Origin: a virus
IMG/VR virus record: IMGVR_UViG_3300034198_021433
Location: 1 to 27,206 of that record
Reading direction: 5' to 3' (one strand)
Length of the DNA stretch: 27,206 nt
Positions 2,897 through 17,968 of the stretch are shown piece by piece. Positions within the stretch are counted from its first letter, which is position 1. Every line of letters begins with the position of its first letter. Position numbers and translations under genes: made by a program. The notes under the pieces were generated by a model. That model was not told the origin of the DNA. It saw only the letters and a program-made list of their open reading frames with translations, and searched no databases.

Positions 2897-3829
2897 ATGA
2901 ACGAATATGTTATTTTTCATATTGATGGTGGTATTGGAAAAAATATTGCAGCAACCGCTGTTATTAAATCCATCAAAGCTGCTTATCCTGAACGTAAATT
3001 AATCGTAATATCTGCATACCCTGAAACTTTTATTCATAATCCTAATATCTTTAGAGTTTATAAGTTTGGAAACATTTCTTATTTTTATGATGATTATATC
3101 AAAGATAAAAATTCAATTGTTTTAAGAATGGAACCTTATCATTCCGAAGATCTCTTATATCGCAGAAAACCTTTGGCTGAAATTTGGTGTGATGTTTTAA
3201 AAATTCCTTGCATTGATGTAAAACCAGAAATTTTCTTAACAGAAAGAGAATTAATATTTGCAAATAACAATTTAAAGAAAAATGGTCCTATTTTGTTAAT
3301 TCAATCTTCCGGTGGGGCAAGTAATCAAAATCATCCATATTCTTGGTCCAGAGATTTACCTCCAGCTTTTGCACAAGAAGTTGTTAATTCATTAAAAGAT
3401 AAATTTAACAAAATTCTTCATATTAGAAGAGATAATCAACCTGCTTTAGAAAATACAATAAAAATTACTGATAATTTTAGAAATCTTTTTTGTTATATTG
3501 CATTATCCGATAAAATTATAGGAATTGATTCTTTTGTTCAACATGCAGCAGCAGCTTTTAAGAAAAAAGCAACAGTTGGATGGATATCCAATTCACCTAT
3601 TGTATTTGGACATAAAATTCATGATAATATTGTTGCTAATGGAGCAGAATCTTTCCGTCATAGAATCGATTCTTATTTAGAATCTGATGATTGGACAGGT
3701 GGACGCTTTTATGAGTGTCCTTATGATAATATCAATAATCTTTTTAACAAAGATCAATTTATAGAATCAGTTTTGGGTTCTAAAACTGAATTGACTTTTG
3801 AAATGGATCATAGTAAAGTAGAATTCTAA
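2897..3829 (+). CDS. GT9 (heptosyltransferase-fold) glycosyltransferase-like protein
   Basis: A 310-residue protein with the two Rossmann-like halves of the GT-B, ADP-heptose transferase (GT9) type. The N-terminal half has a glycine-rich loop after the first strand (DGGIGKNIAATAVIKSIK, residues 10-27) and then KLIVISAYPE. The C-terminal half starts at PILLIQSSGG (131-140) and ends in the typical nucleotide-sugar site IGIDSFVQHAAAAF (208-221) followed by VGW. Such enzymes move a sugar from a nucleotide donor onto a glycan; acceptor and donor cannot be told here. It is followed one base later by a sulfotransferase gene, and the pair stands on the plus strand inside the minus-strand head genes, which suggests an acquired accessory module. 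Confidence 0.75.
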   Translation: MNEYVIFHIDGGIGKNIAATAVIKSIKAAYPERKLIVISAYPETFIHNPNIFRVYKFGNISYFYDDYIKDKNSIVLRMEPYHSEDLLYRRKPLAEIWCDVLKIPCIDVKPEIFLTERELIFANNNLKKNGPILLIQSSGGASNQNHPYSWSRDLPPAFAQEVVNSLKDKFNKILHIRRDNQPALENTIKITDNFRNLFCYIALSDKIIGIDSFVQHAAAAFKKKATVGWISNSPIVFGHKIHDNIVANGAESFRHRIDSYLESDDWTGGRFYECPYDNINNLFNKDQFIESVLGSKTELTFEMDHSKVEF

Positions 3830-3830
3830 T

Positions 3831-4649
3831 ATGATATTTTTTAATTCTTCAATGCCAAGAAGCATGTCTACATTGCTTCAGTGTATTTTAAACCAAAATC
3901 CAGAAATTGCGGCAACTCCTACTGATCCGGTGCTTGAATATTTGTATGGTGCAAGAATGAACTATACAAGTACCCCAGAAGTTAAAGCTATTGGTCAGGA
4001 ATTGGCTTTAAAAACATGGAGAGGATTTTGTAAGGGTGGTTTAGAAGGATATGCTAGTGTTTATTCAGATAAACCTAATATTTGTATTAAAACTAGAGGT
4101 GGTACAATTCATTATCGTTGGTTTGAGTCGTTTATGCCATATAAACCAAAAATGATTTGTATGGTAAGAAATCTCAAAAGTGTTTTTTCTTCTATGGAAA
4201 AAATTTACAGAAAAAATCAAGAACAGCATCAAGAAATTCAAAATCATTCAAAAATGTCAGGAACAACAACTGCAAAAAGAATTGATATGTGGGTTGCTAG
4301 TCCTCCGGTTGGTATGGCACTAGAGCGTTTGAATCAAACTTTCCTTGAAGGTATCAATAAAGAGATTCTTTACATTAGAGCAGAAGATTTAACAAGCTAT
4401 CCTGAAAGAGAAATGAATAAAATTTATCAATATCTTGAATTAGAACCTTTTAGGCATGATTTTGATAATATTGAGCAAAGCATAAAGGAAGATGATAGTG
4501 TTTATGGGTTAACAAAAGATCTTCACACTATTAAAAATAAAATTCAACCATTAAAACCTGATTATAATGAGATTTTGGGTAAACAACCTTGTGAATGGAT
4601 TGATAACAATTTTGCTTGGTATCAAAAATTGTTTGGATATACCAAATAA
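3831..4649 (+). CDS. PAPS-dependent sulfotransferase
   Basis: A 272-residue protein with both PAPS-binding signatures of sulfotransferases: the 5'-phosphosulfate loop SMPRSMSTLLQ (residues 7-17) right after the first strand, and the 3'-phosphate motif MVRNLKSVFSSMEKIYRK (111-128, with Arg113 and the following Ser residues). A later region (YIRAEDLTSYPEREMNKIYQYLELEPF) resembles the family's C-terminal part. It would transfer sulfate from PAPS to a hydroxyl of a sugar, lipid or protein. It starts one base after the upstream glycosyltransferase gene, so the two are probably co-expressed and may build a sulfated glycan on the cell surface or virion. It ends six bases from the convergent fibre gene; no terminator hairpin is visible. 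Confidence 0.88.
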   Translation: MIFFNSSMPRSMSTLLQCILNQNPEIAATPTDPVLEYLYGARMNYTSTPEVKAIGQELALKTWRGFCKGGLEGYASVYSDKPNICIKTRGGTIHYRWFESFMPYKPKMICMVRNLKSVFSSMEKIYRKNQEQHQEIQNHSKMSGTTTAKRIDMWVASPPVGMALERLNQTFLEGINKEILYIRAEDLTSYPEREMNKIYQYLELEPFRHDFDNIEQSIKEDDSVYGLTKDLHTIKNKIQPLKPDYNEILGKQPCEWIDNNFAWYQKLFGYTK

Positions 4650-4655
4650 AAACTA

Positions 4656-6461
4656 TTACCCTCTTACAATAACTCTATATTGATCTACTGGTGGAATAAA
4701 ATCAAAAGATATAGTAATAGAATCGACTGTTGTATTTGATACTAATGGATATACCACATTATAAGTGGTATTATCATAAATCTGAGTAATGATATCTCTA
4801 GATCCATAATTATGATAATAAACAAATGTTGAATTTACTCCATCACCAATTGATGTTACTTGTTTAAAGGACGAACTGTTCCATATATCGCTATTTCCAC
4901 CATCAGCATATATTACACTATTTGAAGAGATGGATCCATTTACTGTTAATTCTACATTTGGAGTATTTGTATTAATACCAATATATCCAGTAGTACCATC
5001 CAATGGATTTACTGGTGTATTTCCAATATAAAGAACATCACTATTTTGATTAGATACAAATTCGGCAATTGGATAATTCCCATTTTGAAATACATATAAT
5101 GCTGGTCCAATTCCATAATTTTCAAGACGTAAGCTTGATGTTGTTATACTGTCCGTGTTTATGTTTGTAAGACCACTCAATGCTGATATAGATCCATAAA
5201 CAAATAAATTCTTTTGTATATCTACATTACCAGTAATATTAAGATCTGATGTTATATTACGTAATACCGAAAGATTTTCTACAAAAGTTGTATCATTTAT
5301 ACCATCAACTTGAATGTTTGATCCTAATATAAAACTATTTGATCCTTTAAGTGTATTACAATAACCACCAATTATTGTAGAATATTCATTACCTTGATTC
5401 GATTGAATAATATTGCAACAACCATTAATAATACTACTATAATTTGCAGAACTTGAATTACATAAACCGTTAACGTTATTATAATTTCCTATTATGCTAT
5501 TAAATTGTCCATTAATAGTTGTGTTATAATAACCAGAAGATGTATTAGCATAACCACCAACAATTACTCCAGTACTTCCTGTTATAGAATTACATCCACC
5601 AGCACCAATATAGTTTCCATATGATGGAAATTGTGGGTTTACTGCACCATTAGTAGTATTACAATATCCACCAACAATAACATTAAAACATGAATTTGTG
5701 CTGTTACAATACCCACCATTAATTATAGTAAAATTACCACAAGATGTATTACAAAACCCACCAACTATAGAAGCACAATATCCAGAAATAGTATTAAAAT
5801 TACCACCAGCAATAACAGAACCATCAGAAGATTCACAAATATAATTATAATTTCCACCATTAATATTTGCTGCATTAGAATCAATGGTATTATTACCTCC
5901 ACCAATAATATTGGAAGCATTTCCATTAATTATGTTTTGAGTTCCACCCGTTATAAAACCACTTGAATTGTTTATTTGATTTAAAAAACCACCACCAATA
6001 AAACTATAAGAAGATAAAATTACATTTCCAGTACCTCCAGCAATTGTAGAATATGAATTATAAACAAGATTATTTGCACCACCCAAAACAGAAGAATAAG
6101 AAGAAAAAGAATTATTACTATCACCAATTATTATATTTGTAGTACCACTAATACCACCCATAACCGATAATTTTCGATTAGGTTCATTTGTACCTATACC
6201 AATTTTATCATTGAAATAAACTAATGTATTATTAGAATTTGAAAATTTTCTTGAATCTATGTATGTAGAAGCATTTGCTATAATTGGAAAATAATAAGGT
6301 GTTTCTGAAATAGCATAAGTGTTTATGTTTGGTATACCTAAACTTGGTTCAGCGGATTTTATATTAATAAAATTGTTTTGATACGCCAAACAATTAGTAT
6401 TTTCGTTTAAAGGATTTAAATAAAAATTACCGCCTAATGATACTGGTTCTTGAGATGCCAT
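4656..6461 (-). CDS. Tail-fibre-like protein with YadA-type beta-roll repeats and cysteines
   Basis: A 601-residue structural protein. Residues about 84-105 (KIGIGTNEPNRKLSVMGG) and 493-512 (YIGINTNTPNVELTVNGS) are the trimeric-fibre motif often seen in phage fibres. Between about 125 and 380 lie some sixteen repeats of 14-17 residues with a GG (or NG) and hydrophobic steps (patterns like IIGGGNNTI, IVGGFCNTS, IIGGYCNT), resembling the left-handed beta-roll head of YadA adhesins. Twelve cysteines occur within residues 209-368, mostly in the repeated G-Y/F-C-N position. The C-terminal domain (535-601) is beta-rich. It lies beside the portal gene, so it could be a head fibre or tail fibre used in host binding; which one cannot be told. 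A TATAAGTA octamer lies 9 bases before the ATG. Confidence 0.78.
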   Translation of the reverse strand: MASQEPVSLGGNFYLNPLNENTNCLAYQNNFINIKSAEPSLGIPNINTYAISETPYYFPIIANASTYIDSRKFSNSNNTLVYFNDKIGIGTNEPNRKLSVMGGISGTTNIIIGDSNNSFSSYSSVLGGANNLVYNSYSTIAGGTGNVILSSYSFIGGGFLNQINNSSGFITGGTQNIINGNASNIIGGGNNTIDSNAANINGGNYNYICESSDGSVIAGGNFNTISGYCASIVGGFCNTSCGNFTIINGGYCNSTNSCFNVIVGGYCNTTNGAVNPQFPSYGNYIGAGGCNSITGSTGVIVGGYANTSSGYYNTTINGQFNSIIGNYNNVNGLCNSSSANYSSIINGCCNIIQSNQGNEYSTIIGGYCNTLKGSNSFILGSNIQVDGINDTTFVENLSVLRNITSDLNITGNVDIQKNLFVYGSISALSGLTNINTDSITTSSLRLENYGIGPALYVFQNGNYPIAEFVSNQNSDVLYIGNTPVNPLDGTTGYIGINTNTPNVELTVNGSISSNSVIYADGGNSDIWNSSSFKQVTSIGDGVNSTFVYYHNYGSRDIITQIYDNTTYNVVYPLVSNTTVDSITISFDFIPPVDQYRVIVRG

Positions 6462-8437: not shown

Positions 8438-9913
8438 TTATGCAGGTGTTCTTGTTATAAAGTAATGGTCAGATGCTGTTGGGTTTGGTGTTTTTGTAAT
8501 TGATGGTGTTGGTGTATTTGATGCTGTATTGCTTATTGTTGGTGTATTTGAAGGTGTTGGTGTGTTTGTTGGTGTTTCACTTATTGTAGGTGTATTTGTA
8601 GGAGTTTCGCTTATTGTAGGTGTGTTTGTAGGAGTTGATGTATTTGTTGGTGTGTTTGTTGGTGTTTCTGTATTTGTTGGTGTATTTGATGGTGTTTTTG
8701 TGTTTGTTGGTGTGTTTGTTGGTGTTTCTGTATTTGTTGGTGTATTTGTCGGTGTTTCTGTTGGGGTTGGTGTTGGTGTTTTTGTAGATGTTTGTGATGG
8801 TGTTTGTGATGGTGTTGCTGATGGCGATTTTGTAGGTTTTGGGGTAAGTGAAGCTGTTCTTGTTTGAGATGGTGTTTTCGTATTTGTGGGTGTTGGAGTT
8901 TGTGTTCTTGATTCTGTGCGTGTTTGAGTATTTGTTGGTGTTCCTGTTCTTGTTTGGGATGGTGTTTGTGTTGGTGTTGGTGTTTGAGTTGGTGTTGCGG
9001 TTTCTGTGGGTGTTTGAGTATTTGTTGGTGTTCCTGTTATTGTTTGGGATGGTGTTTGTGTTTGAGATGTTGTTTGAGATGGAGTTGGAGTTTGAGTTGG
9101 GGTTGAAGTTGGGGTTGAAGTTTGAGTTCTGGTTTGACTTGGCGTTGAAGTTGGGGTTGGTGTGGCGGTTTGAGAATCCGTTTGAGATGGTGTTTGTGTT
9201 GGTGTAATTGTATTTGTTGATGTATGGCTTGGTAATGGTGTTCTAGAAGTTTTGGTTGGTGTTCTTGTTGTTGTTGGTGTATTTGTGGGTGAATTTGTAA
9301 TTGGTGGTGTTTGTGTTGGTGTAACTGTTGGTGTGTTTGTTGGTGTATTTGAAGGTGTTGGTGTGTTTGTTGGTGTTTCGTTTATTGTAGGTGTGTTTGT
9401 AGGTGTTTCTGATGGTGTTATAGATGACGTTATTGTGTTTGTAGGTGTATTTGATGGTGTTCTTGTGTTTGAAGGTGTATTTGATGGTGTTCTTGTTACT
9501 TGATAAAGAACTTCAATACCAGAAGAAACAAAAGGAGAATTTGTTAATTTTCCATAACCTGCTTCATTTTCTACAATAATATCAAAAAAACCAGTTGTTT
9601 TTGGTATTTCTGCAAAATTAAAAAATATATAATTTTCATTATAAGAAAATGATGGCAATAAAACTCCATAAAATGAAGGGTTATCTGCTGATAAATTTTT
9701 AACTGATGAAAATGGATTATAAAAAGTTATATTATCAAACATTAATGGGTTTGATGAACTTACATAAACATTTAATAATTTAAAAAAAGGTCCACCTTTG
9801 ATTACAAAATCTAAATTTAAATATGAAGACAAAATAAAATTATTAATATATAAAAAATCATAATTAAAAAATTTTAATATTGGTTTTGCTGAAATTGTAA
9901 AACTATCGGTCAT
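8438..9913 (-). CDS. Thr/Pro-repeat (TPTNTP) structural or adhesin-like protein
   Basis: A 491-residue protein in two parts. Residues 1-140 are a beta-rich domain; the stretch [22 protein letters not shown] (103-124) resembles an Ig/IPT-like strand pair. Residues 141 to about 478 are almost wholly Thr, Pro, Ser, Asn and Gln in degenerate T-P-T/S-x-T-P units of about four to six residues, ending in [10 protein letters not shown]. Such mucin-like stalks are extended and are frequent O-glycosylation targets in other systems. The gene lies between gp15 and the portal, so a virion surface or neck appendage protein is likely. The frame is continuous through the repeats, so selection keeps it open. 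A plus-strand open frame opposite (Val/Gly-rich) is a by-product of the repeat. No close function is recognised. Confidence 0.75.
8455..9495. repeat. Degenerate short tandem repeat encoding TPTNTP units
   Basis: About 1 kb made of imperfect 12-18 base units; on the plus strand they read like GTGTTTGTTGGTGTT with variations. The plus strand is almost without C and the minus strand almost without G, a strong strand skew. Such arrays expand and contract by slippage or recombination, so the stalk length probably varies among relatives. Confidence 0.85.
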
Positions 9914-16736: not shown

Positions 16737-16764
16737 TTGACATTAATAAAAATTATGTTAATCT
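16737..16764 (+). promoter_or_regulatory. Sigma-70 promoter of the heme oxygenase/bilin reductase pair
   Basis: TTGACA (16737-16742, full -35 consensus), a 16-base gap, and TAATCT (16759-16764) preceded by TG one base upstream, an extended -10. Six bases then separate the -10 box from the ATG at 16771, so the message should begin at or next to the start codon. There is no Shine-Dalgarno sequence. This indicates early expression by unmodified host RNA polymerase. Confidence 0.6.
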
Positions 16765-16770
16765 TATTAT

Positions 16771-17310
16771 ATGACTTTTCAAGAAAAACTTAAACAACAA
16801 ACAAAAGAACTTCATGATTCATCAGAAAATCATCCATTTCATGTATCTTTAGTAAAAGGTGAGCTTTCTGATCAAAAATACTTTATATATTTGCATAATC
16901 TTTTTTCTATTTTCATGTATCTTGAAAAAAGATTAAATTTAACCGGAGAACTTGTCAGAACATCGTTAATGCATAATGATATTATGCAATATACCAAAGA
17001 TGGTTGTACTCTTTCAATTGACGATTTCCATTATTTTGAATGGATGAATGAATTGGGTCAAAAATCTGATAAAATGCTTCTTGCTGTTGTTTATGTCGAA
17101 TGGTTAAAAGATGTTTATGGTGGTCAAATGCTTTCAAAGCACATTAAATACAATTCAGCATTAAAGTATAACAATACAAAAGACACAATCATGAAAATTA
17201 GATCATTGCTTGTTGTCTCTCCAGAAGATGAAGATCAATTTATCTTTGAGGTTAATAAAGTTTACGAGAATCATAATAAAATTCTTGATAAGATCATGGA
17301 AAATGATTAA
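16771..17310 (+). CDS. ho1: Heme oxygenase (biliverdin-forming)
   Basis: A 179-residue protein of the HO-1 family, which opens heme to biliverdin IX-alpha, iron and CO using reduced ferredoxin. The N-terminal helix LKQQTKELHDSSENHPF carries the proximal heme ligand His15 in the family context. The distal helix reads WLKDVYGGQML (residues 111-121). Compared with the usual LGDLSGGQ it keeps the Asp (Asp114) and the Gly-Gly pair (117-118), but has Lys113 in place of the first Gly. The protein is short (cyanobacterial HO1 is about 240), chiefly at the C-terminus, where membrane or extra helices lie in other members. It overlaps the bilin reductase gene by 8 bases, so the two are translationally coupled and should act in sequence. 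Confidence 0.9.
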   Translation: MTFQEKLKQQTKELHDSSENHPFHVSLVKGELSDQKYFIYLHNLFSIFMYLEKRLNLTGELVRTSLMHNDIMQYTKDGCTLSIDDFHYFEWMNELGQKSDKMLLAVVYVEWLKDVYGGQMLSKHIKYNSALKYNNTKDTIMKIRSLLVVSPEDEDQFIFEVNKVYENHNKILDKIMEND

Positions 17311-17968
17311 AGAACTATACAAAAATCATAAAAAAATTGTTGAAGGACTCTATCAAAGGATAGAATATAAAAGTGAAATAGAAAACGAAAATATTATATG
17401 GGATAACGATATCTATATTAACCCTTCTATTCGTTATGGACATTTAGAACACTTTAAAAGTATCAATGATAAAATAGAAGTCCTTCATTGTACATTTTTC
17501 CCATCATATTTTAAAAATATTCCTATATATGGGTTTGATGTTATTGCTCTTAACAATAATGTTACTGGTTTATTTTGTGATTTTACGGATTGTCCTTATG
17601 TCATTTTACATTTAGATGATAAATTAAAAAATTTAAAAAAGAAATATGTTGAAAATGAAAGAAAATTACCAGAATGGGCAAATTTCTTTTCTTCAAACTT
17701 TATCTGTATATCTCCAAAGGGATTAAATGAAGAAGAATTAGTAAATGATTTTACTGATTTGTTTGCATTCTATGTTGACTATGTTGAAAAAAACAATTTT
17801 AGCGGAGACTATCTGTATCCCGAACAAGTTAAAAACTCAATAGCTATTCAAAACAATTATTCTTTCAATCAAAGAAAAAACGACAAAACATCAAAAGCAT
17901 TATCTGCTTATATTGGCGCAACAAAAGCCAGACATTTTATTGATACAATATTATTTCCTGTCTATTAA
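17303..17968 (+). CDS. pcyX: Ferredoxin-dependent bilin reductase (PcyA/PcyX/PebS family)
   Basis: A 221-residue FDBR, which reduces biliverdin with electrons from ferredoxin. The start is the ATG at 17303, inside the end of the heme oxygenase gene; an open frame from 17210 is longer but overlaps that gene by 100 bases. Aligning by eye to cyanobacterial PcyA, the catalytic set is present: Glu49 (HLE, PcyA Glu76), His62 (LHC, His88), Asp79 (YGFD, Asp105) and Asp194 (KNDKT, Asp220). LPEWANFFSS (122-131) is the family signature LPEWG. Because His88 and Glu76 are kept, it is of PcyA type rather than typical PebS, which fits the phage clade named PcyX, reported to make phycoerythrobilin. FDBR membership is clear; the subclass is inferred. 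The stop shares TTAA (17965-17968) with the endolysin. Confidence 0.9.
   Translation: MIKELYKNHKKIVEGLYQRIEYKSEIENENIIWDNDIYINPSIRYGHLEHFKSINDKIEVLHCTFFPSYFKNIPIYGFDVIALNNNVTGLFCDFTDCPYVILHLDDKLKNLKKKYVENERKLPEWANFFSSNFICISPKGLNEEELVNDFTDLFAFYVDYVEKNNFSGDYLYPEQVKNSIAIQNNYSFNQRKNDKTSKALSAYIGATKARHFIDTILFPVY

Follow-up and report, generated by a model that had tools for sequence, protein, structure and literature searches.

The DNA analysed here, referred to as the window, is a complete IMG/VR record of 27,206 bases and covers part of the genome of a T4-like phage that has not been cultured. The phage origin claimed in a preliminary description of this DNA is borne out by T4-type structural and replication genes, which encode the portal protein gp20, the head maturation protease gp21, a gp4-like head closure protein, a gp13-like adaptor, a tail sheath stabiliser, a DNA primase, UvsW, the late sigma factor gp55, and an SbcD-like gp47. 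Since the portal and capsid proteins are at best about 30% identical to those of phage isolates, the lineage is considered uncultured. Two neighbouring genes of the window encode a heme oxygenase (HO) and a ferredoxin-dependent bilin reductase (FDBR), and the locus contains the following features:

16737-16742, plus strand: TTGACA, a -35-like element 28 nt upstream of the HO start codon, candidate sigma-70-type promoter
16771-17310, plus strand: heme oxygenase of the HO-1 type, 179 aa, ATG start, assigned by Pfam, PDB and AlphaFold/Foldseek
17303-17310, plus strand: 8-base overlap of the HO and FDBR frames, ATGATTAA
17303-17968, plus strand: FDBR, 221 aa, ATG at 17303, assigned by Pfam, PDB and trees

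The coordinates of both genes and every residue named in the preliminary description were found at the same numbers, and the overlap that it reported is exact to the base. It had also called the genes fused; the overlap stands, but HO and FDBR are two separate proteins. Their frames also overlap in the related loci L003, L006 and L020, an arrangement that is consistent with co-transcription and coupled translation. The dN/dS ratio is approximately 0.16 for HO and for FDBR when the window is compared with L003, and approximately 0.12-0.14 when L006 is compared with L020 (about 0.12-0.17 for the two pairs of loci together). Because synonymous changes far outnumber non-synonymous ones, both genes are under purifying selection and have been retained as working proteins.

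Three related contigs, G003 (37 kb), G004 (170 kb) and G010 (226 kb), have in the same order nearly all the genes of that part of the window which each of them overlaps. The HO-FDBR pair occupies the same slot in all three, opposite in orientation to its neighbours, and a further contig, G002 (72.5 kb), begins with the pair. Identity of the pair to that of the window is 82/74% in G003 and G002, 57/54% in G004, and 55/55% in G010, while G011, a more distant contig, has 35/45%. A Pfam scan of about 70 G004 and 56 G010 proteins revealed nucleotide-metabolism, DNA-modification and structural genes, with no clear host marker among the families listed (25 of 35 in the last set).

Other genes of the window also have unusual features. 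Beside the portal gene, positions 8438-9913 (minus strand) encode a 491-aa protein composed mostly of Thr/Pro-rich repeats of the TPTNTPT type, which resembles a fast-evolving virion protein; the local GC skew is strong there, at 0.45-0.54. A 601-aa protein encoded at 4656-6461 (minus strand) contains many GGxxNxI repeats resembling beta-roll adhesin heads, and matches to PHROG families of head decoration or virion proteins are confined to its C-terminal part. Glycosyltransferase-like and sulfotransferase-like genes are inserted at 2897-4649 (plus strand), counter to the structural genes, and this position is kept in G004 and G010 with 71-84% identity.

The TTGACA element is kept approximately 28-32 nt upstream of the HO ATG in four genomes, and the same hexamer is enriched upstream of the genes of this lineage (16 copies versus 2.2 expected in G004, and 21 versus 4.8 in G010), mostly at 28-35 nt from start codons; a generic promoter scan by itself gave no signal above chance. 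Shine-Dalgarno-like sites occur at about the shuffled level in G002, G004, G010 and the window, unlike in two pelagiphages and two cyanophages. The placement and enrichment of TTGACA, together with the near-chance level of Shine-Dalgarno-like sites, suggest that expression is early, driven by sigma-70 and nearly leaderless, and that the host differs from those of the bilin phages known so far. The pair would be transcribed early from its own promoter, counter to the surrounding genes. A Bacteroidota host is not suggested, as TAnnTTTG sites are too few in the lineage.

That the locus encodes an HO together with a bilin reductase, as first proposed, is well supported, since both proteins score above their Pfam cut-offs, far beyond chance, and have HO-1 and PcyA, respectively, as solved relatives. 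The HO matches PF01126 with 55.4 bits (cut-off 23), and its best solved relative in a PDB sequence search is HO-1 (8.5e-08), with HO-2 and HmuO also matched. AlphaFold models of HO and FDBR were built on alignments of the window and locus proteins; the HO model has a mean pLDDT of 93.8 and is predicted to adopt the HO fold, with a Foldseek TM of 0.83 to HO-1 and a range of 0.79-0.84 over HO-1 and HmuO. Residues His15, Asp114 and Gly117-Gly118 correspond to human His25, Asp140 and Gly143-144, which form the proximal His and distal helix positions, and they are intact in every full-length HO of the window branch, the phage group to which the window FDBR belongs. The enzyme is predicted from its sequence to convert heme into biliverdin IXalpha, iron and CO; its short length (179 aa) and the Lys113 and Tyr116 that replace Gly139 and Ser142 of HO-1 count against the pathway proposed below. 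Elsewhere, two HOs located beside PcyX-type reductases (L078:5291-5872 and L081:5304-5873) have lost the Gly-Gly motif, and a different residue is aligned to the proximal His in them, which possibly makes them inactive, and in two others with divergent FDBRs as neighbours (L023:5433-5945 and L210:7301-7828) Ile or Met replaces the catalytic Asp140.

The FDBR matches PF05996 with 84.5 bits (cut-off 31), and its best solved relative in the PDB search is PcyA (2.9e-18), ahead of the solved PcyX (1.3e-14). Its AlphaFold model (mean pLDDT 93.3) is predicted to have the FDBR fold: Foldseek ranks PcyA first (TM 0.83, E 1.5e-14), while PcyX 5owg is matched with an E of 1.1e-06. Family membership, as claimed at the outset, is therefore supported by both the Pfam match and the modelled fold. 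Residues Glu49, His62, Asp79 and Asp194 align to PcyA Glu76, His88, Asp105 and Asp220, and an LPEW motif is found at residues 122-125. In PcyA, Glu76, His88 and Asp105 are catalytic, and Glu76 is PcyA-specific, needed for reduction of the 18-vinyl group and missing in PcyX (PMC10151467). On the other hand, Asp55 is specific to PcyX, and an enzyme without it, from the freshwater phage CB_2, makes phycocyanobilin (PCB) (PMC11480375). In a 72-sequence alignment, all PcyX-clade rows have Asp in the Glu76 column (residue 55 of the Mosig pelagiphage enzyme) and Pro in the Asp220 column, while the window has Glu and Asp. The PcyA catalytic trio is thus complete in the window as Glu49/His62/Asp79, and the PcyX-specific Asp55 is absent, its column being occupied by Glu49.

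The FDBR was placed in two maximum-likelihood trees, the second one built after adding loci; neither contains CB_2 or pre-PcyA rows. The window belongs to a phage branch of 5 rows in the first tree (support 100/99) and 16 rows in the second (100/98), and it is excluded from the PcyX clade in both (100/99 and 99/94, respectively). Within the PcyA tree, it stands as a branch of its own on the AX side (the AX group comprises PcyX and proteobacterial PcyA), with PebA/PebB-lineage rows forming a 100/100 outgroup. AU tests rejected a grouping of the window clade with the PcyA of cyanobacteria and cyanophages (p 0.020), but neither PcyX (p 0.39) nor alphaproteobacterial PcyA (p 0.40) was rejected as its sister group. 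Several candidate identities are hence discarded: PcyX, by the residues (no Asp55, no Pro at the Asp220 column) and the tree; a cyanophage PcyA origin, by the AU test; PebS, by His62 in the His88 column, where Peb rows have Asn, and by the outgroup position of the Peb rows; and pre-PcyA, which is defined by missing Glu76 and His88 (PMC10151467), by the presence of both counterparts. No CB_2 FDBR was present among the phage matches to the window FDBR, an IMG/VR scan with alphaproteobacterial PcyA patterns gave no matches, and a DNA-similarity search with a PebA/PebB region for a PebS reference gave no match.

The preliminary description had labelled the reductase PcyX-like, although its own residue list pointed to PcyA. 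With Glu in place of Asp55 and a position outside the well-supported PcyX clade, in trees of the kind that it had proposed, that label is unsupported. The phycoerythrobilin product that it implied is likewise disfavoured: the PcyA-type Glu is present, the PcyX Asp55 is absent, and PCB is expected instead, because the CB_2 enzyme without Asp55 makes PCB.

Some related loci were seen alongside. A 318-kb phage contig, G013, carries a PcyX-type HO-FDBR pair and, at 110815-112011, a strong ALA synthase match (567 bits); its gene set is the published three-gene set, and ALA synthase was found in this contig only. A 335-kb contig from a Neomarinimicrobiota MAG (L141) and a contig from a Halobacteroidaceae MAG (L137) carry a PcyX-type FDBR and an HO, which in L141 are separated by genes for IMPDH, HSP20 and a carbon-nitrogen hydrolase; these bacterial bins possibly contain misbinned large phage contigs. 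In L064, L066, L072, L093 and L203-L209, which are cyanophage-like contigs, two bilin reductases lie in tandem, and a PebA/PebB-lineage frame, probably PebS-like, overlaps the start of the PcyA frame.

Taken as a whole, the best explanation, and one that we consider probable, is that HO and FDBR are encoded by a single small operon in an uncultured T4-like phage. HO would open host heme to biliverdin IXalpha, freeing iron and CO, and the FDBR, with its complete PcyA-type site, would then carry out a four-electron reduction of biliverdin, most likely to the blue pigment PCB and not to the pink phycoerythrobilin, with electrons that would have to come from a ferredoxin of the host. Apart from the HO features mentioned above, other points count against this explanation: no ferredoxin partner was found in the lineage contigs, the AU tests reject neither PcyX nor alphaproteobacterial PcyA as sister of the window clade, the trees are without CB_2, and sequence is an unreliable guide to FDBR regiospecificity (PMC13193486). 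An enzyme that functions as PcyX and makes phycoerythrobilin despite Glu49 is quite improbable, given that Glu and Asp stand where PcyX has Asp55 and Pro and that the window clade is separate and well supported, even though the two-gene HO and FDBR cassettes of marine phages are usually of the PcyX type (PMC11480375) and the AU test does not reject a sister relation to PcyX.

The product of the PcyA-type pair may also differ among close relatives. The window branch comprises about 20 loci in IMG/VR, retrieved by a scan built on the branch, and HO adjoins FDBR at every one of them where the flank is present. At the Glu76 column (window residue 49), L194, L198, L200 and others have Glu, L189, L195, L196, L201/L202 and L208 have Gln, and L210-L212 have Ser; at least four Glu/Gln changes are needed on the tree. 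No such Glu/Gln variation was seen among the cyanobacterial, cyanophage and alphaproteobacterial PcyA rows sampled. Within the branch, then, the residue thought to set the bilin product varies, whereas the HO catalytic residues do not, and the pigment is probably not fixed. It is possible, if somewhat doubtful, that this phage-only, HO-paired branch has swapped Glu and Gln repeatedly and that the bilin made differs between sister phages, being PCB where the residue is Glu and, where it is Gln, a product reduced in the A ring only, such as phytochromobilin. If true, either phages retune the pigment made in their hosts, or it does not matter which pigment is made and heme breakdown is the purpose of the pair. 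The switching makes a specific product test possible, as the natural Glu and Gln variants, with their shared background and sister sequences, provide ready pairs for testing the product-deciding residue.

Phage bilin genes are usually explained by light harvesting in cyanobacteria. The preliminary description had reported no photosystem gene in the window; this is confirmed, and none was found in the relatives either, as searches for Photo_RC, PHY, GAF, Fer2 ([2Fe-2S] ferredoxin) and ALA synthase found none in the lineage contigs, including those of 170 and 226 kb; as all of these are fragments, the absence falls short of proof. Among the possible roles, heme catabolism with disposal of biliverdin ranks highest, ahead of chromophore supply, and light harvesting ranks lowest. 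Heme breakdown is preferred because no photosynthesis or photoreceptor genes accompany the pair and the product-setting residue is inconstant: iron would be freed, or heme and toxic biliverdin removed, and the exact bilin would matter little. This reading, which we judge to fall slightly short of an even chance, agrees with a lineage without light-related genes, in which the HO catalytic residues are fixed in full-length HOs while the 18-vinyl residue of the FDBR varies, and iron supply has already been proposed for such cassettes (PMC11480375). It is weakened by the fact that HO alone suffices for iron release and that a full FDBR spends ferredoxin electrons.

A less probable, rather unlikely role is the supply of a bilin chromophore to a host photoreceptor, be it a phytochrome, a cyanobacteriochrome or a bilin-binding globin, thus tuning host light signalling during infection. 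The HO and PcyA of phage CB_2 assemble a functional phytochrome in E. coli, and the Bradyrhizobium alphaproteobacterial pcyA island adjoins a bacteriophytochrome gene (PMC11480375); nevertheless, PHY and GAF domains are absent from all lineage contigs, so the receptor would have to be that of the host, and the Glu/Gln switching argues against a fixed pigment. Light harvesting, in which the phycobilisomes of a cyanobacterial host would be kept supplied (a role suggested for ho1-pebS and pcyA of cyanophages), is very improbable for a lineage in which no photosystem (psbA/psbD-type), phytochrome, GAF, ferredoxin or ALA-synthase gene was found: cyanophages are among the closest named relatives of the structural proteins of this phage and bilin genes are common in them, but those proteins share no more than about 30% identity with any isolate, the FDBR falls outside the cyanophage PcyA clade, and the translation-start signals differ from those of two cyanophages and two pelagiphages. 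An HO and PcyA-type pair is kept in the same place and under selection by a T4-like lineage that shows no sign of a photosynthetic host, and with it the role of bilins in infections of non-phototrophs becomes testable.

Different known systems share some of these features. Cyanophage PebS is, like the window enzyme, a phage FDBR acting downstream of HO, but it belongs to the PebA/PebB lineage, has no His in the His88 column and can be aligned to the window FDBR by fold only. Cyanophage PcyA (P-SSM4, ACG-2014j and others) has the PcyA-type site of Glu76, His88 and Asp105, but it is about 30% identical, falls in a separate clade (union p 0.020) and, unlike the window, has no HO in the flanks of its loci. 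The alphaproteobacterial PcyA of Falsiroseomonas/Roseomonas (L099-L105) shares both the PcyA-type site and the AX group, again with about 30% identity; its genes are located on the host chromosome, and they are rare, as 385 genomes sampled from the class gave 2 that exceed the cut-off. The PcyX cassette of marine phages and of pelagiphage Mosig EXVC030M (Mosig_00053/54) resembles the window in layout, as the HO gene immediately precedes and overlaps that of an AX-group FDBR in a T4-like phage, while identity is about 28% for FDBR and 26% for HO, Asp55 stands for Glu and Pro for Asp220, and the characterised PcyX product is PEB. By its published description, CB_2 is like the window in that its vHemO and vPcyA combine a phage HO with an FDBR without the PcyX Asp55, for which the PCB product has been shown and a phytochrome built (PMC11480375). 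CB_2 differs in its genome of 527 kb, its assignment to Methylocystis and its ALA synthase gene (valaS) (PMC7674155, PMC11480375), for which the window lineage contigs have no counterpart. No description of the window branch was found in PMC11480375, PMC10151467, PMC13193486 or PMC13198022, supplementary files aside. Phage cassettes of HO and FDBR are already known, as PcyX and as the PcyA of CB_2; the novelty lies in a distinct T4-like lineage that carries a PcyA-type pair without ALA synthase and whose FDBRs form a separate branch of the AX group with repeated Glu/Gln switching at position 76.
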